From contig CACIZC010000009.1 of the NCBI GenBank assembly GCA_902591045.1, forward strand, positions 1 to 50,439: DNA of 50,439 bases, given 5' to 3'. Below, piece after piece: positions 4,848 through 14,896 of this stretch. The stretch comes from an uncultured Pelagibacteraceae bacterium (GTDB lineage Bacteria > Pseudomonadota > Alphaproteobacteria > Pelagibacterales > Pelagibacteraceae). How positions within the stretch are numbered: position 1 is the first letter of the stretch; every line of letters begins with the position of its first letter. Below the pieces are notes generated by a model, which was not told the DNA's origin, did not search any database, and saw only the letters and a program-made list of their open reading frames with translations. A program made the position numbers and the translations under genes.

Positions 4848-5615
4848 TTAATTAATTTTCTTTTTTTGTTCATGTTTTATTTTTTTAATAAGACTTTCTC
4901 TTGAATTAAACAATAATTTAAACTTAATTTTTTTATTTGATTTTATATAAACACTTTGAATATTTCTAATTTCATTGTTGTCAGAGACTGCTGCTATCGG
5001 TCTTTTTTTAGGGTCAAGATTTTTAATAAAGATTTTTTTATTATCAGTCACAACTCTTCCTTTCCATCTTCTTGGTCTAAAAGGACTTATGGGAGTTATG
5101 GCTAATTTTTTTGAATTTAAAGATAAAATTGGGCCGCTAACAGAAAGATTGTAGGCTGTACTTCCCGCGGGTGTAGATACCAAAACTCCATCACCTACTA
5201 ACTTTTTCACTAAAATTTTTTTATTTATTTTTAATCGTAACGATGAGGTTTGTTTGCTTTGTCTTAAAAGAGATAACTCGTTTATAGCTAAAAATTTATT
5301 TGAAATCTTTTTTGAGTTAACAGTTGTAATTTGTAAAGGATTTATTGTAATAATTTTTGATCTTCTTATCGATTTATCAATTTGATTAGAAACATATTTA
5401 TTCATTAAAAAACCAACTGAACCACAATTTATCCCATAAAATAATTTTTTAAACTTATGAAATTTTTTAATTGTTTTAAGCATAAAACCGTCCCCGCCTA
5501 CTACTACAATTACATCAGATTTTAAAATGGGAAAACTTTTAAATTTTTTTTGAATAGTTTTCTTAAACTTTATCGAACTTGCGGTTCTATCAAATATAAA
5601 ATGACATCTGTTCAT
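4848..5615 (-). CDS. nadK: NAD kinase
   Basis: Phosphorylates NAD+ to NADP+ in the cytoplasm. The 255-residue length is normal for the bacterial family. The GGDG catalytic motif is at residues 40-43 (VVVGGDGFMLKTI), followed by GINCGSVGFL near 61-70, and the NAD-binding GDGVLVSTPAGSTAYNLSVS near 141-160, then ITPISPFRPR. These are the family's core blocks in the right order. It begins 8 bp past the 3' end of tRNA-Leu, so the tRNA transcript may continue into it. The NAD+ synthetase gene nadE is also in this window, but about 33 kb away. Confidence 0.93.
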   Translation of the reverse strand: MNRCHFIFDRTASSIKFKKTIQKKFKSFPILKSDVIVVVGGDGFMLKTIKKFHKFKKLFYGINCGSVGFLMNKYVSNQIDKSIRRSKIITINPLQITTVNSKKISNKFLAINELSLLRQSKQTSSLRLKINKKILVKKLVGDGVLVSTPAGSTAYNLSVSGPILSLNSKKLAITPISPFRPRRWKGRVVTDNKKIFIKNLDPKKRPIAAVSDNNEIRNIQSVYIKSNKKIKFKLLFNSRESLIKKIKHEQKKKIN

Positions 5616-5623
5616 AATTATTT

Positions 5624-5708
5624 TGGTGCCCTCGGCCAGACTCGAACTGGCACTCCCTTGCGGGCAAGGATTTTAAGTCCTTTGTGTCTACCATTTCACC
5701 ACGAGGGC
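5624..5708 (-). tRNA. tRNA-Leu (anticodon UAA)
   Basis: An 85-nt tRNA with encoded CCA. The acceptor 5' strand GCCCTCG pairs with CGAGGGC before the ACCA end. The anticodon stem AAGGA/TCCTT frames the loop CTTAAAA, with anticodon TAA at 5675-5673. A class II variable arm (GCCCGCAAGGGAGT region) and a T arm with GTTCGAGTC complete it, as expected for tRNA-Leu. The first 42 bases plus one base upstream are repeated exactly at 12569-12611. This copy is complete, but its upstream DNA belongs to the transporter module and is AT-rich with no strong -35/-10 pair. Confidence 0.96.
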
Positions 5709-5709
5709 A
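5667..5709. repeat. Proximal 43-bp direct repeat (inside tRNA-Leu)
   Basis: Exact match, same orientation, to 12569-12611. It covers tRNA bases 1-42 plus one upstream base. Identity stops at the 3' strand of the anticodon stem: base 5666 is A here, while its partner 12568 is G. It behaves as a candidate attachment site. Confidence 0.9.
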
Positions 5710-5781
5710 CTGTGTTATTTTATTGTTATTGTTTATATATAATTGAACAAGTTTAATAAGTAAATTTATTTCGTTTAAGAA

Positions 5782-6975
5782 CTACCCTTTTACACTACCC
5801 GAAGTAAGGCCGCTTACCAAATATTTTTCAAAATATACAAAAATAAAAAGCACTGGTAGGGTGACTATAACAGATCCAGCCATTAAATATTGGCGCGGAG
5901 TTTCCGCATCTCCACTTAAATATTGAATAGCCCTCGATAAAGTAAAAGATTTAGGACTATCTAAAAACATTAAAGAAAAAAGAAATTCATTCCATGCAAT
6001 CATAAAGACATATAAAGCGACTGATGCAATCGCTGGTAAACTTAATGGTATAATAATCTTTAATATTATGCCAAACCAATTCTGGCCATCCATAATTCCT
6101 GCGTCTTCAATTTCTTTTGGAATACTTTTAAAATATCCTTGAAGCATATAAATAGCGACCGGCAAGGTTGTGGCTGTATAAACAATCAATAGACCAAAAA
6201 TTGAGTTTCTTAATCCAAGTTGACTAAACACAGTATATAATGGGATCACTAAAACTATAGCTGGAAACATATAAATAATTAAAATTGAAGTTGATAAAAA
6301 ATTTTTACCAAAGAAATTTAATCTAGCAACTGCATAAGCGGCAGGTATTGCAAATAATAGTGTTACAATAACAGTTCCAACTGAAACTGCTGAGCTTATT
6401 AAGATATATCTTCCAAAATTATAAGTTTCAAAGATTACAAAATAAGACTTAAATAACTCTGTTAAGCTTTTTGTAAAATCTAGACTAAAGTCCAAAGGAT
6501 TAACTAATAAAGCTATCTGAGTTTTAAAACTAGTAACCAGCATAATGTAAAATGGAAATAAAATTACGAATGCAAAGAAAACAATGCCAAACAAGGTGAT
6601 AAAATCAAAAATAATCTTTTCAGATATGAAATCTTCTTTAAAAGACTCCATGCTATATTTTTTGAGTTTGTTGGTAAAAAATAAAGAGATTAAGAAAACC
6701 CCAAGAATATACCAATATGGTGATGCCTCGTTTAAGTAAAAATATAAAATTGAAAATAAAAATGATAATGAGAAAATCTTTATTAAGTGATTAATCTTTT
6801 TTCCGATTAAGACAAATGATAACGACAACAGGATACAAATAGAGAAAACTGGTGTGATGTTTAAATTAGTAAAACTTAGACCCTGTAAGGTCGACATAAT
6901 CTTCCAAATTGACAAGATACATGTGAGAAAAAAAGACGATATGATTAAAAATATTGAAAGAGATTTAAACTTCAT
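5782..6975 (-). CDS. ABC sugar transporter permease, MalG/UgpE type, with extended N-terminus
   Basis: Inner-membrane permease of a carbohydrate-uptake-1 type ABC transporter. The EAA loop that docks on the ATPase is EIEDAGIMDGQNWFGIILKI, in the C-terminal third, and the C-terminus SGLTSGSVKG matches the MalG-like ending. I choose the ATG at 6975 (397 residues), preceded by GGAAAGAGAG; a TTG five codons upstream is less likely. It overlaps the upstream permease gene by 11 bp, so translation is coupled. The usual family length is about 280-300; here about 110 extra N-terminal residues add three or four hydrophobic helices before the conserved core (FPFYIMLVTSFKT). Confidence 0.9.
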   Translation of the reverse strand: MKFKSLSIFLIISSFFLTCILSIWKIMSTLQGLSFTNLNITPVFSICILLSLSFVLIGKKINHLIKIFSLSFLFSILYFYLNEASPYWYILGVFLISLFFTNKLKKYSMESFKEDFISEKIIFDFITLFGIVFFAFVILFPFYIMLVTSFKTQIALLVNPLDFSLDFTKSLTELFKSYFVIFETYNFGRYILISSAVSVGTVIVTLLFAIPAAYAVARLNFFGKNFLSTSILIIYMFPAIVLVIPLYTVFSQLGLRNSIFGLLIVYTATTLPVAIYMLQGYFKSIPKEIEDAGIMDGQNWFGIILKIIIPLSLPAIASVALYVFMIAWNEFLFSLMFLDSPKSFTLSRAIQYLSGDAETPRQYLMAGSVIVTLPVLFIFVYFEKYLVSGLTSGSVKG

Positions 6976-8224
6976 TAGCTCTCTTTCCAATTAATCTAAA
7001 ATAAATAACCATGAAAGTAAGAAGCAACATTACAATTACTATTGAAACAGCTGAGCCCATTCCGATATCTGATACAGCAAACCCTTGTTGATAAACATTA
7101 ATAGGGAGTGTTCTTGTTCCTGAGGCGCCACCTGTTAATAAAAAAATATCTTCAAATTTATTAAAGTTCCAAATAAACCTAATCATAAATAAAATTGAAA
7201 TGATTGCTGTAATTTGAGGCAGCGTTATATGGATAAATTTTTGGATTGGGCTCGCTCCATCCACATCAGCTGCTTCGTACAAACTGTGTGGAATAGCTTG
7301 TAATCTTGCTAAAATAAAAAGAAAAGCGAGAGGAAAATAACGCCAAATTTCAAAAAATATAACTGTGGTTAAAGCTAGTCTTAATTTAAATTCAAAACCT
7401 AAAATACTCATTGTTATGTATTTTTGGCCCAGTAAATTTATTGGTTTCTCTATAATATTAAAATTAACCAATAATGCATTTAAAGTTCCACTATTTGGGT
7501 CTAACAATAAAGTCCAAGTATAAGCTAAAGCAACCACAGGACCCACATAAGGAAAAAGCAAAATACCTCGCATGTAAGTTCGACCTTGAATATTTTGATT
7601 AACTAATTGTGCTGCTAAAATTCCAAAGATAATTGCACCTACAGTGCCAAAAAAAGTGAAGTAAAATGTAGTTAAAAGCAATTCAACAAAATTATTTTCA
7701 TAAAAGACTTTTTTAAAATTTTCTAAAGTAAAACTTGTAGACAATAGTGGATTATCTGCTTTTCCACTTAAAATTGGTTTTTGAGATTTAATTGATTTTT
7801 TATTAATTGTTTCACCATTAATATTCTTTATGGTTATCTCAAAATTTTCTCTATATTTGGCCTCCCAATTTCCAAAATTACAAATCACCTTTTTAGATTG
7901 AAAATTACATCTTGAATCTAGATTTATTGGTGAAATATCTTTTGGAAATTTATCTTGGAACTGAACATTTCTTATTTCTTGAATTAACGAGCTATTTCTT
8001 AATTTATAAATAATTTTTAATTCTGATTGATTTTCTGAAATTGATTTAACAATTTTCTTTGCTCTCGGTTCAGGAATTCTAATATCTTTTAACTCAATGT
8101 CTTTAAAACTGATCCAAACATTTGCAAATATAGGAAATAAAACGATAGCAAAAACTAATAGGACTGCAGGTAAAACTAAAGTGTAAGCAGTTCTTTTTTC
8201 TAATTTTGATAATGTATCGCTCAT
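6965..8224 (-). CDS. ABC sugar transporter permease, MalF/UgpA type, with periplasmic DUF11-like insert
   Basis: Partner inner-membrane permease. Helix 1 is at about residues 15-35 and the conserved helical core at about 180-415. The EAA loop is EAADVDGASPIQKFIHITLP near 317-336. Between them, about residues 40-165 form a soluble extracytoplasmic insert with alternating beta-type sequence and two cysteines (C106, C115). Its pattern (KFPKDISPIN, then CNFQSKKVICNFGNW, then FEITIK) looks like a DUF11-type beta-sandwich repeat. MalF of E. coli also has a large periplasmic loop at this place that contacts the binding protein. The start codon lies 3 bp after a strong RNA hairpin. Confidence 0.9.
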   Translation of the reverse strand: MSDTLSKLEKRTAYTLVLPAVLLVFAIVLFPIFANVWISFKDIELKDIRIPEPRAKKIVKSISENQSELKIIYKLRNSSLIQEIRNVQFQDKFPKDISPINLDSRCNFQSKKVICNFGNWEAKYRENFEITIKNINGETINKKSIKSQKPILSGKADNPLLSTSFTLENFKKVFYENNFVELLLTTFYFTFFGTVGAIIFGILAAQLVNQNIQGRTYMRGILLFPYVGPVVALAYTWTLLLDPNSGTLNALLVNFNIIEKPINLLGQKYITMSILGFEFKLRLALTTVIFFEIWRYFPLAFLFILARLQAIPHSLYEAADVDGASPIQKFIHITLPQITAIISILFMIRFIWNFNKFEDIFLLTGGASGTRTLPINVYQQGFAVSDIGMGSAVSIVIVMLLLTFMVIYFRLIGKRANEV

Positions 8225-8227
8225 AAT

Positions 8228-8261
8228 AAAGAGCAGATAATACTTTTATTATCCGCTCTTT
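8228..8261 (-). promoter_or_regulatory. Intercistronic hairpin between binding-protein and permease genes
   Basis: The arms 8228-8241 and 8248-8261 form a 14-bp stem with a 6-base loop. In leftward RNA the only imperfect pair is a G-U wobble; in rightward RNA it would be an A-C mismatch, so the structure fits the leftward transcript. It lies 3 bp before the permease ATG, in the 50-bp gap after the binding-protein gene. Such hairpins commonly stabilise or partly terminate transcripts, so that the binding protein is made in excess over the permeases. Confidence 0.65.
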
Positions 8262-8274
8262 ATAAATTTATTAT

Positions 8275-9597
8275 TTAAAACTTAGCTAATTCAGCGTTAA
8301 TTTTCTTAACAGCTTCATCAACTGAGATTTGATCATCAATATATTCTCTAGTAATTCTATTTAAAAACTGAGAATTAATGATTTTTGATGCTCGAGAAAG
8401 TTCACCTTCTTTAACTCCCCATCTGTTTGCGGTGTCTAAACCAGCAACAATGTTATCAATAACATCTGCAGAATAAAGGTCAGTCAATGGTGCTTTTCTA
8501 TCAACACCTACAGGTAATTTACTCCAAGCTTTCGTGTAAGCACTAGGATCACTTTTGTTTCCTCTTCTTACAGGGAATTTTCCTTCCGGAGCAATTCCTA
8601 ATGTCGCTGTATATCCATCACTCATTGAATATTCTATGAATTTTTTAGCTTCATCTGTATCTGCATCCGCTGTTATTCCGAAGTATCTTACATCTGCCCA
8701 AGCAGCTCCTTTTTTATTATTAGGTCCACTAAAATTAGTAATAAAACCAGTTTTAGAGGCTAGCTCTGGTGATGTAGGATCACTATTTATTGTTGGAGGA
8801 GCAGAGTCTCTTAATCCTGCTAATTCATCCATTATAAATGGTGACCAAATAACCATAGGTGTTTTTCCTGCAAAATATAAAGCTCTAGATTGTTTCCAGA
8901 ATAATTCTCCTGGAGGACTTGCTTTAGCAATTACTTTATAAAATTCTAAAGAATTCTTTAAAGCTTTACCTTGCTTTTTAGTTCCACCTTTTTTAACTAA
9001 GTTAACTCCATTTGCTAAAAGTACATGCTCAAGTACTTGACTCATAAAGTTTTCATCTGTTTTAGTGGCAGCTACAAAGCCAAACATGTCATTGCTTGAT
9101 AATGCGTTAACAGCTTTAACTATATTTGCATATGATGTTGGTGGTTCTAAACCAGCTTTTGCAAATAGATCTTTTCTATAAACAACCATTTGTGTCCACC
9201 CATCAACTGGAACAGCTGCAATTTTTCCACCTTTCTTAGCCATGTTTAATGCGCCTGGTGCAAATGTTTTTTTTCCTAATGATTTAACAACATCATTATT
9301 TGCATCTACATCTAATATTCCCGCCTCAGCCCAAGGTAAAACATATTGCAATGTGTGATAAATCACATCTGGAAGATTTCCTGCTGCTGCTGCTGCAGTA
9401 GCTCTTGTTCCAAGATCTTTTTCTTCAACAGGTATTACTTCAACACTAATACCAGTTTTCGACTCAAAAGCCTTAGCCATTGATTTTTGTTTTTCCATTC
9501 TTTCTGGTTGAACTTCAGTAGTCCAGAACGTAATTCCGGCATAACTTGAGTTAACAAAAAATGAAAAAGCAAATATGTATACTAATATTTTTCTCAT
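8275..9597 (-). CDS. ABC sugar transporter periplasmic substrate-binding protein
   Basis: A 440-residue extracellular solute-binding protein of family 1 (MalE/UgpB-like). Residues 1-20 are a Sec signal peptide with a likely cut after SSYA (MRKILVYIFAFSFF core). The mature start GITFWTTEVQPERMEKQ and VEVIPVEEKDLGTRATAAAAAGNLPDVI are typical first-lobe features, and DGWTQMVVYRKDLFAKAGLEPP matches the family signature near residue 125. A strong Shine-Dalgarno, GAGGGG, stands six bases before the ATG. It is first in the leftward operon, ahead of the two permeases, and its promoter must lie in the 168-bp gap shared with the divergent ATPase gene. Ligand unknown; the GH13 partner suggests a small alpha-glucoside. 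Confidence 0.92.
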   Translation of the reverse strand: MRKILVYIFAFSFFVNSSYAGITFWTTEVQPERMEKQKSMAKAFESKTGISVEVIPVEEKDLGTRATAAAAAGNLPDVIYHTLQYVLPWAEAGILDVDANNDVVKSLGKKTFAPGALNMAKKGGKIAAVPVDGWTQMVVYRKDLFAKAGLEPPTSYANIVKAVNALSSNDMFGFVAATKTDENFMSQVLEHVLLANGVNLVKKGGTKKQGKALKNSLEFYKVIAKASPPGELFWKQSRALYFAGKTPMVIWSPFIMDELAGLRDSAPPTINSDPTSPELASKTGFITNFSGPNNKKGAAWADVRYFGITADADTDEAKKFIEYSMSDGYTATLGIAPEGKFPVRRGNKSDPSAYTKAWSKLPVGVDRKAPLTDLYSADVIDNIVAGLDTANRWGVKEGELSRASKIINSQFLNRITREYIDDQISVDEAVKKINAELAKF

Positions 9598-9765
9598 TAT
9601 TCCCCTCTATATTTTTATTAATTTTCAGAAAAACCTACCAAATCTGTTCGGAAAATAAACCCTTTAAAAAAAATATGGCAGGTATGCAAATTTTACATTA
9701 CCCTAATTTTGTAGTTAAAATAAAATCTTAACTGTTAAAACTAAACTCTAGGTTGAATTTTTTTT
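9598..9765. promoter_or_regulatory. Divergent control region of the transporter module
   Basis: The 168 bp between the binding-protein gene (leftward) and the ATPase gene (rightward) is the only sizeable non-coding stretch inside the module, so both promoters should be here. Rightward, TTTACA and TAAAAT are separated by 18 bp. Leftward, TTGCAT occurs, but I see no good -10 at proper spacing. I found no convincing inverted repeat that would be a regulator site, and the module encodes no regulator. Confidence 0.45.
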
Positions 9766-10818
9766 ATGGCATCTATAGAACTGAAAAATATTGAAAAAAG
9801 TTTTGGAACAAACAAGGTAATCAATAAATTTGACATAAAAATAAACGATGGAGAATTTGTTGTTTTAGTTGGTCCATCAGGTTGCGGAAAGTCTACACTT
9901 TTAAGAATGATCTCAGGTTTAGAGTCAGTTGATACAGGAGAAATTTATTTAGATAACAAACTAATAAATAATTTAATTCCTTCTAAACGTGAAATTGCAA
10001 TGGTTTTTCAATCCTATGCTTTATATCCACATATGAATGTTTTTGAAAATATGGCTTTCGGCTTAAAAATGGAAAAAATTCCAAAAAGTGAAATCAATCA
10101 AAAAGTTAATAGTGCTGCTGCTACACTTCAAATAGAGGATTTGCTTGAAAGGAAGCCTAAACAGTTATCAGGTGGACAAAGACAAAGAGTTGCAATTGGT
10201 AGAGCAATCACAAGAAGTCCTAAAGTTTTTTTATTTGATGAACCATTATCAAACCTTGATGCTGCTTTAAGATCTGAAATGAGAGTTGAAATATCTAAGC
10301 TACATAAAAAAATGAATTCAAATATAATATATGTAACTCATGATCAAGTTGAAGCAATGACATTAGCTGATAGAATTGTAGTTCTTAATAAGGGAAATAT
10401 CGAACAATATGGAACGCCTAATGAGATTTATTCAGATCCAAATAATATTTTTGTTGCAGAATTTATTGGATCCCCAAAAATGAATATAATTAAGATTAAT
10501 AATGAACATATTTCTAATTCAAACACTTTGCACTTATTTAATAATAAAATAACTTTTGATAATTTAGAATTTAAAGATGAGATTTATATAGGTATTAGAC
10601 CTGAGCATATAAGCTTAAAAAACAATCATGAAATCAAGGTAGATGTAAAAATTGATCTTGTTGAAAATCTAGGATTTGAAAAAATTATTTATTCTAAAGT
10701 TTCAGAAAATCAAATTATAATTAAATCATCAGAAAATGTTAATAATCACTCGCTTAGGATATCTTTTTCAAAAGATAAAGTATTATTCTTTGATAAGGAT
10801 AAAAATAGGATTAGATAA
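9766..10818 (+). CDS. ABC sugar transporter ATPase, MalK/UgpC/MsmK type
   Basis: A 350-residue nucleotide-binding subunit. Walker A is GPSGCGKST near residues 37-45, the Q loop MVFQSYALYPHMNVFENM near 82-99, the signature LSGGQRQRVAIGRA near 134-147, Walker B VFLFDEPLSNLDAAL near 155-169, and the switch His in YVTHDQ near 190-195. The C-terminal part (about 240-350) is the beta-rich MOT/TOBE region of sugar importers (IGIRPEHISL). It powers the two permeases encoded leftward across the divergent gap, and heads a rightward pair with the GH13 gene, 26 bp downstream. Confidence 0.94.
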   Translation: MASIELKNIEKSFGTNKVINKFDIKINDGEFVVLVGPSGCGKSTLLRMISGLESVDTGEIYLDNKLINNLIPSKREIAMVFQSYALYPHMNVFENMAFGLKMEKIPKSEINQKVNSAAATLQIEDLLERKPKQLSGGQRQRVAIGRAITRSPKVFLFDEPLSNLDAALRSEMRVEISKLHKKMNSNIIYVTHDQVEAMTLADRIVVLNKGNIEQYGTPNEIYSDPNNIFVAEFIGSPKMNIIKINNEHISNSNTLHLFNNKITFDNLEFKDEIYIGIRPEHISLKNNHEIKVDVKIDLVENLGFEKIIYSKVSENQIIIKSSENVNNHSLRISFSKDKVLFFDKDKNRIR

Positions 10819-10844
10819 TTTCATTTGAATAAAAAATATTATTA

Positions 10845-12569
10845 ATGTCTACTCAAAAAGGTCAAAATAAAATAAGATCTAAATTAGATAATATATACAA
10901 AATATCTTTATCCAAAAAAGATATTGATAAATTTGAAGATGAAATAATTCAAATAATTAAAAATTTTAATAAAAAAAATCCAAAAAAGAAAAAGAATATT
11001 TCAGAGAAAACTTCATTAATAATTTGTTATGGAGATAGTATTTATTCAAATAAAAAAAATTCAATCTCATTATTTAAGACTTTTTTCCAAAAAAAATTAA
11101 AGAAATATTTTAATATGATACATTTTTTACCCTTTTATCCTTCTAGTAGTGATAGCGGGTTTTCAGTAAAGGATCATTATAAAATTGATAATAAACTAGG
11201 TAGTTGGTCTGATATAAAAAAAATTTCAAAATCAAATGACATTATGGCTGATATAGTAATTAATCATGCATCAGCGAGAGGTTTATGGTTTAGAAACTTT
11301 TTAAAAAATAAAAAACCAGGTAGAAATTATTTTTTAACCATCGACTCTAAATTTAATACTTCAAAAGTAATACGACCAAGAGATCACAAGTTATTAAAAA
11401 AAATTAATATTTTTAATAAGAAAGAATACCTTTGGAGAACTTTTAGTGCAGATCAATTAGATCTAAATTTTAAAAATCCATCCGTATTATTAAGATTTAT
11501 TAAAATTATGATTTATCTTATCAATCATGGTGTAACTGTTTTTAGGTTAGATGCAATTGCATATCTTTGGAAAGAGAGTGGTACAAAATGTATTAATTTA
11601 AAACAAACACATCAAATCATTAAACTTTTAAGAACAATTTGTAGTTCTCTAAATGTGGAAACCATAATTATTACTGAAACAAACTTACCCGAAAAGGAAA
11701 ATCTAAGTTATTTTGGTAAAAACGATGAAGCTAATTGGATTTATAATTTTTCTCTTCCACCATTATTAATTCATGCTTTTTTATTTGAGAATAGTTCATA
11801 TTTAAATCAATGGAGTAAAAAACTTCCAGTTACAAAAAATGGAAATAGCTATTTGAACTTTATATCATCTCATGATGGAATTGGTATTAGGCCTACTGAG
11901 GGAATATTTAACCAAAAAATATTAAGTAGCTTTCTTAAAAGGCTAAAAAAAAATGGATCAAAATTTTCATATAGAAAAGTTAAAAACAAATTAAAAAAAG
12001 TCTATGAAGCAAATATAACTGTTTTCGACGCACTTAAAAAATCGGATTATGACTCAAAAGGAAAATTTTTTTTAGAAAGATATGTTTCTGCACATTCAAT
12101 TATGATTTCTTTTGAAGGAATCCCTGCAGTATATTTTAATTCTTTGTTTGGCAAATCTAATGATGAAGCTAAATATATAATAACTGGAAATAATAGAGAT
12201 GTTAATAGATATAAATGGAATTATAAAAATATTTCAAAAAAACTTGATAACAAAAATTCCAAACAAAGCATATTTTTTCAGAAAATTTCGAATTTACTTA
12301 ATGTGAGAAGAAAACAAAAAGCATTTCATCCAAATGCCTCAAGACACAATATAAACCTTGGCTCAAAAATTTTTTCTTTCAAAAGAATAAGCATTAATAA
12401 AGAACAAACTATAATTTGTATTACAAATTTGTCATCAAAAACTCAAGGAGCTCACATAAATAAAATTTATCATAATTGGAATAATTTAATTGGATCTAAA
12501 ATTGAAATAAAGAATAAGCTTTTAATATTAAAACCCTTTGAAACAATTTGGTTAAGCAATAAACGATGA
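10845..12569 (+). CDS. GH13 subfamily 18-like glucoside phosphorylase (YcjM/sucrose phosphorylase type)
   Basis: A 574-residue alpha-amylase-fold enzyme without signal peptide, so cytoplasmic. Catalytic landmarks: nucleophile D236 in VFRLDAIAYLWKE, acid/base E278 in IIITETN, and D344 in SSHDGIGIRP. HFLPFYPSSSDSGFSV (near 93-108) and KQTHQIIKLLR (near 253-263) are characteristic of GH13_18. That subfamily covers sucrose, glucosylglycerol and glucosylglycerate phosphorylases, which release glucose-1-phosphate. An N-terminal extension of about 55 residues and the overall length are nearer to E. coli YcjM (a glucosylglycerate phosphorylase) than to the roughly 500-residue sucrose phosphorylases. 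The exact substrate is undecided. The TGA stop touches the distal tRNA repeat. Confidence 0.85.
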   Translation: MSTQKGQNKIRSKLDNIYKISLSKKDIDKFEDEIIQIIKNFNKKNPKKKKNISEKTSLIICYGDSIYSNKKNSISLFKTFFQKKLKKYFNMIHFLPFYPSSSDSGFSVKDHYKIDNKLGSWSDIKKISKSNDIMADIVINHASARGLWFRNFLKNKKPGRNYFLTIDSKFNTSKVIRPRDHKLLKKINIFNKKEYLWRTFSADQLDLNFKNPSVLLRFIKIMIYLINHGVTVFRLDAIAYLWKESGTKCINLKQTHQIIKLLRTICSSLNVETIIITETNLPEKENLSYFGKNDEANWIYNFSLPPLLIHAFLFENSSYLNQWSKKLPVTKNGNSYLNFISSHDGIGIRPTEGIFNQKILSSFLKRLKKNGSKFSYRKVKNKLKKVYEANITVFDALKKSDYDSKGKFFLERYVSAHSIMISFEGIPAVYFNSLFGKSNDEAKYIITGNNRDVNRYKWNYKNISKKLDNKNSKQSIFFQKISNLLNVRRKQKAFHPNASRHNINLGSKIFSFKRISINKEQTIICITNLSSKTQGAHINKIYHNWNNLIGSKIEIKNKLLILKPFETIWLSNKR

Positions 12570-12611
12570 GGATTTTAAGTCCTTTGTGTCTACCATTTCA
12601 CCACGAGGGCA
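12569..12611 (-). pseudogene. Orphan 5' half of tRNA-Leu(UAA), distal 43-bp repeat
   Basis: An exact copy of tRNA-Leu bases 1-42 plus one upstream base, in the same orientation as the intact gene 6.9 kb away. It contains the acceptor 5' strand, D arm and most of the anticodon arm, and then stops: there is no variable arm, T arm or acceptor 3' strand, so it cannot make a tRNA. It abuts the stop codon of the GH13 gene. Upstream of it (to the right) is a good promoter, suggesting that this is the original 5' end of the chromosomal gene, displaced by the insertion. Confidence 0.92.
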
Positions 12612-12632
12612 ATATATATTCTTTTAACATGT

Positions 12633-12661
12633 TTTATACTGCTGGCAATTGCTAAGTGCAA
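12633..12661 (-). promoter_or_regulatory. Sigma70-like promoter in front of the orphan tRNA half
   Basis: Reading leftward, the -35 box TTGCAC (12661-12656) and the -10 box TATAAA (12638-12633) are separated by exactly 17 bp. The tRNA 5' base would be about 22 bp past the -10. This is about as good a match as the rpsD promoter in this window. It now points into the orphan half-tRNA and then antisense to the GH13 gene. It also overlaps the 5' region of the rightward BKACE gene. Confidence 0.65.
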
Positions 12662-12693
12662 TCCTTGGAACAATCATTTATAAAAGTATTATT

Positions 12694-13473
12694 ATGAATT
12701 TTTATAAGCCAGAACATCTGCCGCGTTTAATGGTTGCTCCTAATGGAGCTAGACCTACAAAAAAAGATCATCCTGCTGTTCCTGTAACTATTTCTGAAAC
12801 AGTTGAAACCGCAAAGGCTTGTTTTAAATCAGGTGCTACTGGAATACATTTTCATATGCGTGATGAAAAAGGACAACATATTTTAGATTCGGGTCTTTGC
12901 AAAGAAGCTTTGACTGAACTTCAAAAACAAGTTCCAAAAATGCATTTACAAGTCACAACAGAAGCTGTTGGGAGATATTCGCCAGAAGCAATGCGTAAAC
13001 TTGCTTATGATGTTGTCCCCCCTGGTATTTCAATTGGAATTCGAGAGATGATACCTTCACGTCAACCAACATCTGATGACATTAAAGTTTATAAAAAACT
13101 TACAGAGTCGGGAACAAAAATCCAGCACATATGTTATGGACCAGAAGATGTTGATCTTCTTTCAAATCTTTTAGATAAAGCTGAACTTTCAAAGAATGGA
13201 ACATGGTGTATGTTTGTAATAGGACATTACTCAGGAAAAATTAGTAATCCCGAAAATATTTCTCCTTTTGTTGAAAGACTTAAAAAAAATAATATGAATG
13301 CTGATTGGGCAGTGTGTGCTTTTGCTAAAAAAGAACTGTCTTGTCTAAAAATGGCAATAAAACTTGGTGGAAAAATTAGAGTTGGTTTTGAAAACTCATT
13401 ACTTATGCCAGATGGAAGTGTTGCTCCTAATAACGAAACAAAAGTTAAAGCGGCAAATGCTCTATTTGACTAA
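12694..13473 (+). CDS. Beta-keto acid cleavage enzyme family (BKACE, DUF849)
   Basis: These zinc enzymes condense a beta-keto acid with acetyl-CoA and split it into acetoacetate and a new CoA ester. The 259-residue protein has the metal-binding GIHFHMRDEKG (H52, H54) and a late RVGFENSL block whose Glu matches the third ligand position of the family; VAPNGARPTK at the N-terminus is also typical. I choose the ATG at 12694; a TTG at 12649 would place the start inside the leftward promoter. The 3' end overlaps the convergent hydroxylase gene by 29 bp. Side-chain specificity cannot be read, but the next genes suggest an aromatic or carboxylic acid pathway. Confidence 0.85.
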   Translation: MNFYKPEHLPRLMVAPNGARPTKKDHPAVPVTISETVETAKACFKSGATGIHFHMRDEKGQHILDSGLCKEALTELQKQVPKMHLQVTTEAVGRYSPEAMRKLAYDVVPPGISIGIREMIPSRQPTSDDIKVYKKLTESGTKIQHICYGPEDVDLLSNLLDKAELSKNGTWCMFVIGHYSGKISNPENISPFVERLKKNNMNADWAVCAFAKKELSCLKMAIKLGGKIRVGFENSLLMPDGSVAPNNETKVKAANALFD

Positions 13474-14896
13474 AATCATTAATAGTCTTACAAGTTTTAA
13501 GAATAAATCTATCTGGCCTTACGATAACAGCTTTTGCTTTATAGCCTTTTAGCACATTAGATAAACCTACCACTTCTTTCTCAGTAATTATTGGTATTTT
13601 GCTTTTTGACTTTTGCTTCTTTAACTCTGAAGACAAAAGCACAAGAGGTGATGTAGAAAATTTGTCGTCTAATGTTTTGCCATTTTTCATTTTTAGCTGA
13701 GGAAAAATTCTGCCTCTGTTTCTATCCATTTTATCTCCAAGCCCAAAACCTAACTTTGGTTTTATTGACTCCATTTTTTTTGTTCCATCTGGTTTTGAAG
13801 ATATATTGTCTGTAATTTTATCTGATCCAATGGCATTTACGAATTCACCCATTCTCATTGTAGTTTCTATATATTCTTTAGCATTTGAAAATCTCTCTGT
13901 TTGATATGTATCCAAAAACTTTTCATCATGTTTATTTTTAATACATAAACTAATTTTCCAAGCCAAGTTTGAAACATCCCTAATTCCTGCACACATACCC
14001 TGCCCCATAAATGGCGGCATCAAATGTGCCGCGTCACCAGCGATAAAAATTCTTCCTTTTCTCCATTTTCTAGCAATAGCTGATTGAAATGTATAAATTG
14101 TTTTTCTTTCTAAATTAGCTTCTTCTGGTGATAACCATGGCTTTAAAAAATTCCAAATATAATTATCTGACAGTATTTCTTGTTCATTCTCATGATCGTG
14201 GATAGCAAATTCCCATCGTCTCCTTTTACCTACGTTCCTACAATAAGTAGCTGGTCTTTTAGGATTAGAATATTGAATGGTTCTGTCAGGTAGTTCGTCT
14301 TTCTTTTTCTTTAATATTAAATCAACAACTACCCATTTTTGAGTAAATCCAAGATTATCAAGTTCAGTTCCTATTTGTGTTCTTGTGGTTGAACGTGCCC
14401 CATCACAACCAATAACATATTTAGAAGATACATTGTGTAGCTTCTGATTAGTCGTATCTTTAAAAACTAAATCTACTTTGTCTTTTGTGCTTTCTATTTT
14501 ACAGACATCAGAGTTTTGTCTTATTGAAACTTTCTTGAATTTACGCAAACGCATCCGAAGATTTCTTTCTAAATCAGGCTGATGAAACCTATAACTTGGA
14601 TACCATCCATTTTCCGTAATTGTGCGAGGACGAGGCCAATCAAGTAGTATTTTACCTTCGGAATTTACAAATTTAGTTCCTTTATTAACAATTGTGTCCT
14701 TTAAAAATTTTTTAGTAATACCAATTGTTTGAAAAACCCTCATTATTTCATCATCAAAGTGAACTGCTCTAGGTAACGAGTAAAGACTTTTTTCGCGTTC
14801 TAAAATTAATATAGAGAATCCATTAAGGGCTAATAAGTTGGCTAATGTTCCACCTGTTGGTCCAAGTCCTACTATAACAACATCATATTTTTTCAT
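13445..14896 (-). CDS. FAD-dependent aromatic hydroxylase (MhpA/PheA-like)
   Basis: A group A flavoprotein monooxygenase that would hydroxylate a phenolic ring using NAD(P)H and O2. The FAD GxGxxG loop is GLGPTGGTLANLLALNGF (residues 10-27), the DG motif is VIGCDGARSTTR (161-172), and the GD motif is IFIAGDAAHLMPPFMGQG (283-300), which binds the FAD ribose. At 483 residues it is shorter than E. coli MhpA (about 550), lacking most of the C-terminal thioredoxin-like part. It lies 26 bp downstream of the ring-cleavage dioxygenase gene, the expected next enzyme, so the pair is probably one operon. The substrate is a guess; a hydroxyphenyl acid would fit. Confidence 0.85.
   Translation of the reverse strand: MKKYDVVIVGLGPTGGTLANLLALNGFSILILEREKSLYSLPRAVHFDDEIMRVFQTIGITKKFLKDTIVNKGTKFVNSEGKILLDWPRPRTITENGWYPSYRFHQPDLERNLRMRLRKFKKVSIRQNSDVCKIESTKDKVDLVFKDTTNQKLHNVSSKYVIGCDGARSTTRTQIGTELDNLGFTQKWVVVDLILKKKKDELPDRTIQYSNPKRPATYCRNVGKRRRWEFAIHDHENEQEILSDNYIWNFLKPWLSPEEANLERKTIYTFQSAIARKWRKGRIFIAGDAAHLMPPFMGQGMCAGIRDVSNLAWKISLCIKNKHDEKFLDTYQTERFSNAKEYIETTMRMGEFVNAIGSDKITDNISSKPDGTKKMESIKPKLGFGLGDKMDRNRGRIFPQLKMKNGKTLDDKFSTSPLVLLSSELKKQKSKSKIPIITEKEVVGLSNVLKGYKAKAVIVRPDRFILKTCKTINDFSQIEHLPL

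Follow-up and report, generated by a model that had tools for sequence, protein, structure and literature searches.

Why does half of a leucine tRNA gene lie against the stop codon of a GH13 phosphorylase gene in a SAR11 bacterium, and does the promoter-like sequence in front of it matter to that gene? We have analyzed this locus in a 50,439-nt stretch of DNA (the window) from a member of the Pelagibacteraceae (SAR11) with 30% GC. An earlier interpretation from the letters alone (the sequence-only reading) held that the half had kept a near-consensus promoter that now fires antisense into the GH13 gene, and that the resulting RNA could dampen phosphorylase expression, act as a decoy for tRNA-binding enzymes or be a harmless scar. 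The harmless scar is the likeliest of these three options. Very probably the fragment is the scar at the left end of a site-specific insertion that entered tRNA-Leu(UAA) at the anticodon loop, and any RNA from the promoter displaced by that insertion is most likely a by-product. We regard the recurrent integration at this 5' half, which swaps the tRNA promoter, as of greater interest than the antisense RNA.

An insertion in tRNA-Leu(UAA)

tRNA genes are classic integration sites. The orphan half, the presumed attL scar, occupies positions 12569-12611 on the minus strand and consists of 42 tRNA nucleotides plus one base. It is a 43-nt direct repeat, 100% identical, of positions 5667-5709, and corresponds to a T followed by nucleotides 1-42 of tRNA-Leu(UAA), with the anticodon-loop bases (nucleotides 32-38) at 12579-12573 on the minus strand. 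A perfect repeat of this length far exceeds what chance would produce. ARAGORN did not call the half as a tRNA, but did call the complete tRNA-Leu(UAA) at 5624-5708 (minus strand; Rfam tRNA, 59.3 bits), in which the other copy of the repeat lies. The 5' half of this complete gene is derived from the inserted DNA and its 3' half is native; on the 3' side follows a native NAD kinase gene (4848-5615, minus strand; NF003406) that is linked to tRNA-Leu in relatives. The GH13 gene ends in the stop codon TGA (12567-12569), the last base of which belongs to the orphan half as well, so that the contact described in the sequence-only reading is in fact an overlap of one base.

Genome G008, of the same genus, represents the empty site. 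Its intact tRNA-Leu(UAA) adjoins a BKACE (beta-keto acid cleavage enzyme) gene and is preceded by the same TTGCAC-17-TATAAA sequence that precedes the orphan half in the window, and the sequence shared at the insertion ends inside the tRNA anticodon arm. The locus thus has a tRNA direct repeat at both ends, one copy of which completes the gene, and an uninterrupted counterpart in a relative, as in tRNA-targeted integrative elements. The earlier identification of the fragment as a 43-nt orphan of a tRNA-Leu gene is borne out by the exact repeat and by this empty site.

Between the repeats lies a 6.9-kb cassette (5709-12568) for sugar uptake. On the minus strand it encodes two ABC sugar-transporter permeases, MalG-like (5782-6990) and UgpA/MalF-like (6965-8224), and an extracellular solute-binding protein (8275-9597); on the plus strand it encodes a UgpC/MalK-like ABC transporter ATPase (9766-10818, above the NF008653 cutoff) and the GH13 phosphorylase (10845-12569), whose nearest solved relatives are glucosylglycerol and sucrose phosphorylases. 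The cassette shares 94% DNA identity over 6,880 bp with G344, a genome of another genus, whereas the adjacent NAD kinase shares 60% protein identity. The solute-binding protein is 97-99.5% identical in genomes of another genus (g4). None of the other 30 same-genus genomes has a GH13 homologue, but 70 further genomes of the Pelagibacteraceae do, with up to 94% identity. In G344's genus the same cassette is found at the same tRNA-Leu/NAD-kinase locus, and the GH13 gene abuts a tRNA-Leu half in G344, G054, G336, G232, G359 and G351, which represent that genus and a third one; the abutting halves range from intact to decayed. The difference between about 94% identity in the cassette and about 60% in the NAD kinase, together with the patchy distribution of GH13, shows that the cassette was acquired horizontally by way of the tRNA-Leu site.

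The complete tRNA now stands behind sequence unlike its native promoter, with a candidate cassette-borne promoter, TTATTA-16-TATAAA, at 5732-5759 on the minus strand (8 of 12 consensus bases). Related upstream sequence occurs in other genera. The last ~25 nt before the tRNA are unlike the nearest donors, and the right end of the cassette therefore appears to be a mosaic.

No integrase was found in 5709-12568 or nearby. The only PF00589 (tyrosine recombinase) match in the window's genome (G000), a fragmented assembly that is 82% complete, is on contig C6 and not on the window contig. Most Pelagibacteraceae genomes checked have one such match each, in a search that may miss divergent integrases, as the satellite integrase described below scores below the family cutoff. 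Nor did tblastn with the satellite and phage integrases detect a homologue in those chromosomal tRNA-Leu(UAA) hot-spot loci that were retrieved. Additional tyrosine recombinases in G005 and G045 adjoin tRNA-Met and not tRNA-Leu. These genes, beside tRNA-Met(CAT) at L176 and L206 (G005:C2) and at L177 and L207 (G045:C1), resemble the borders of tycheposons.

We propose that the chromosomal tRNA-Leu recombined with a circular DNA that brought in a promoter and a tRNA 5' half of its own. Joined to the native 3' half, the half on the cassette would have restored the complete tRNA, now behind a new promoter from which it is presumably expressed, and the native 5' half would have been pushed 6.9 kb away with the old promoter still attached. 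A tyrosine integrase acting in trans presumably moved the cassette; homologous recombination between tRNA halves could have done so instead. The window cassette has neither an integrase nor the AGTC repeats described below.

A recurrent site in SAR11 genomes, phages and satellite-like elements

A second, partial copy of tRNA-Leu is present in six of the 20 same-genus genomes with a tRNA-Leu match, the window's genome included. Where genes were read, the cargo at the hot spot varies: pyruvate kinase and phosphofructokinase in G005, G012 and G026, a protease-like protein in G006 and G016, and a secreted-looking protein of 768 or 789 amino acids in G014 and G027. The pyruvate kinase and 6-phosphofructokinase cassette was located at L023:11641-14207 (G005) and L037:3351-5920 (G006). 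Several loci are stacked in tandem. In G344 the complete gene is preceded by two halves, and in G248, G135 and G359 a tRNA half lies between cassettes; in such stacks even promoters brought in by elements have been orphaned. Orphan halves in the family genomes compared range from intact to decayed, the pattern expected for scars. Substitutions of this kind are seen in the other-genus halves at L162:10036, L164:10282 and L171:12304.

The same half occurs in phages. HTVC105P (MH598804.1:4684-4727, L312) and HTVC109P (MH598805.1:4110-4148, L313) each carry an unannotated tRNA-Leu(UAA) 5' half 84-88 nt downstream of the integrase gene, and an uncultured Pelagivirus (AP013542.1:34497-34540, L314) has it just downstream of its integrase gene. 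This position suggests that the half in pelagiphages is likely the attP. In IMG/VR a search pattern that included the extra T of the D-loop retrieved such halves in 23 contigs, most of which continue from the half into non-tRNA DNA; the pattern without that T (GTGGTGAAATGG) returned complete phage tRNAs only and was set aside.

Among these contigs is a 7.8-kb sequence (L289:1-7799, IMGVR_UViG_3300025897_001356) with a 99-bp terminal repeat, which indicates a circle of about 7.7 kb. It encodes a 545-aa integrase (phrog_1), an AEP-TOTE/DUF5906 primase-helicase and a RusA-like protein. Homologues of all three are found in L304 and L310, and of the integrase and RusA-like protein in L308, whose similarity in the primase is only weak. 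A circular form, an integrase and a primase are features of satellites, and from its gene content L289 may depend on a helper phage. The putative attP of L289 contains three AGTCTC repeats spaced 10 bp apart. AGTC-containing 10-bp repeats inward of the core, at +23/+33/+43, are shared by the satellites and the scars in G016, G006, G135, G159, G359 and G248, although not all three are present in every copy; they resemble integrase arm sites.

The displaced promoter and the BKACE gene

Upstream of the orphan half, the minus strand reads TTGCAC (12661-12656), a 17-nt spacer and TATAAA (12638-12633), the latter 22 nt upstream of G1 of the tRNA. Boxes, spacing and leftward direction are as the sequence-only reading described them, but the description as near-consensus does not hold. 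TTGCAC matches TTGACA at 3 of 6 positions and the pair matches at 8 of 12, which is ordinary for the window: pairs of this quality occur about 11 times per kb per strand, 19% of random points in the window have one at least as good at a suitable distance, and a stricter promoter scan of the window did not list this pair. Promoter strength was accordingly discarded as evidence, 8/12 matches being common in this AT-rich DNA. What raises the boxes above chance is that both, with their spacing, stand intact before the intact tRNA-Leu of G008. They are thus the native tRNA-Leu promoter, now displaced, and the proposal that the fragment had retained its original promoter is confirmed. The -35-like box is kept in G008, G014, G027 and G005; the -10-like box is kept in the first three and lost in G005.

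The displaced promoter probably remains able to bind RNA polymerase, and antisense firing is plausible. By geometry a leftward transcript would start near 12625, cross the tRNA 5' half and continue antisense to GH13. Neither a terminator-like site, in a sequence scan of 11500-14000, nor a minus-strand ORF of at least 60 amino acids within GH13 was found.

The boxes lie in a native intergenic region (12612-12693) that separates the divergent tRNA-Leu and BKACE genes and aligns to the empty site of G008. On the plus strand the -35-like hexamer reads GTGCAA and is followed, after 17 nt, by a -10-like TATAAA (12679-12684), 9 nt before the ATG of the native BKACE gene (12694-13473, plus strand; PF05853). 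The hexamer thus appears to be shared, as their -35, by two divergent promoters with spacers of 17 nt (12656-12684), and a BKACE mRNA would be nearly leaderless. The arrangement GTGCAA-17-TATAAA or TATAAT, then 9-10 nt to the ATG, is found in the window, G008, G014, G027 and G005, all five genomes that keep the region. G015 (L042/L058, G015:C4) has a BKACE 94% identical to the window's beside a different tRNA-Leu, whose anticodon reads TAG, and beside a trigger-factor-like gene. Phages of the HTVC011P/HTVC025P type reportedly integrate at tRNA-Leu(TAG) with a flanking trigger factor.

The conserved BKACE promoter explains the retention of the leftward boxes at least in part. There is an appreciable chance, short of even, that the boxes now serve BKACE only and that leftward initiation has been negligible since the tRNA was displaced. 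The conservation of the rightward promoter in all five genomes fits this, as does G005, which keeps the rightward boxes although its leftward -10 has become AATATT; against it, the leftward -10 is retained after tRNA displacement in the window, G014 and G027, and in the last two it lies 28 nt before a cargo gene.

Those two genomes bear on another reading, possible but somewhat unlikely in our estimation, that the displaced tRNA promoter normally reads in sense into an integrase or cargo gene of the elements that use this site, so that it works as a promoter trap and only the window cassette faces the opposite way. In G014 and G027 the leftward boxes are in sense orientation to the 768/789-aa gene, 28 nt ahead of its start codon. 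The gene sits, at L029:13736-16105 (G014) and L028:13553-15859 (G027), as if it had captured the native tRNA-Leu promoter. In L289, L304 and L310 the integrase gene lies about 100 nt past the core in the direction of the tRNA, an arrangement that after integration would place the copy behind the tRNA promoter of the host; the satellites may, however, possess an integrase promoter of their own. A wider version is that tRNA-Leu(UAA) 5'-half elements of SAR11 repeatedly replace the tRNA promoter and reuse the displaced one as a trap, in sense for the integrase in satellites and for cargo in G014 and G027, and antisense to GH13 in the window; we consider this unlikely, if worth stating.

A functional cis-antisense RNA from the displaced promoter, lowering expression of GH13 and perhaps of the MalK-like ATPase, is highly improbable. 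The native promoter is intact in the right place and orientation and the scanned region has no terminator-like site, but an 8/12 match of the boxes is weak and often arises by chance, most other-genus genomes have different sequence without this promoter 3' of GH13, and orphan halves decay elsewhere. We rejected conservation of the boxes as an argument for such a function: the hexamer is also part of the conserved BKACE promoter, and its retention is no evidence of selection for the RNA. The suggestion that the half RNA is a decoy for tRNA-processing or modifying enzymes is extremely improbable: the anticodon hairpin AGGA-CUUAAAA-UCCU is still predicted within the longer RNA, but the RNA lacks acceptor and T arms, the half on its own folds poorly and uninformatively (-3.9 kcal/mol), and the scars decay in other genomes.

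The reading we prefer is therefore the insertion scar. The old promoter would fire an RNA from near 12625 through the tRNA 5' half and antisense to GH13, with little effect, and its leftward boxes would be retained at least partly through the hexamer that serves the divergent BKACE gene. If made, such an RNA is most likely a by-product of low value.

Comparison with known elements

A close parallel is with pTN3-like archaeal integrative elements, in which a tRNA 5' half serves as attB and integration splits a suicidal integrase (PMC8371274). The window cassette resembles them in its 5'-half attB, in the tRNA rebuilt behind element sequence and in the old promoter facing the element, but it has no integrase in 5709-12568, split or otherwise. 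Replacement of the tRNA promoter is seldom encountered in bacteria, where the rebuilt tRNA almost always retains its own (PMC8371274, citing Williams 2002). The temperate pelagiphages HTVC105P and HTVC109P (Autographiviridae, Pelagivirus) have the same half just downstream of the integrase gene, their att sites being read from the sequence; the window cassette differs in having transporter and GH13 genes and no phage structural or replication genes. Tycheposons of Prochlorococcus, and of Methylophilaceae in PMC10872708, likewise place metabolic cargo at a tRNA gene of a streamlined marine bacterium, and border tRNA sequence and cargo are both present in the window, but their border tRNA comes with xerD, whereas the window has a 5' half and no tyrosine recombinase. 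Marine phage satellites (VEIMEs; PICMIs, PMC10803314) are matched by L289 and its kin, which are about 7.7 kb, circular and likely site-specific, with an integrase and a DUF5906 primase-helicase; neither AlpA nor Fis, which define PICMIs, turned up among the L289 proteins scanned. The window cassette, unlike these satellites, has neither integrase nor primase. The Fonsibacter phage paper describes tRNA-Leu(TAG), and our literature search found no paper describing tRNA-Leu(UAA) 5'-half integration in SAR11.

One 5'-half site is thus common to phages, satellite-like elements and integrase-free metabolic cassettes in highly abundant ocean bacteria. The shared half being the 5' one, every insertion gives tRNA-Leu(UAA) a new promoter and leaves the previous one stranded; if displaced promoters do act as traps, expression of both the tRNA and the cargo would depend on the last-arrived element. 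The site also makes a helper enzyme for integrase-free cassettes a testable question, and it provides an entry route for sugar-uptake and glycolysis genes into the streamlined genomes of SAR11.
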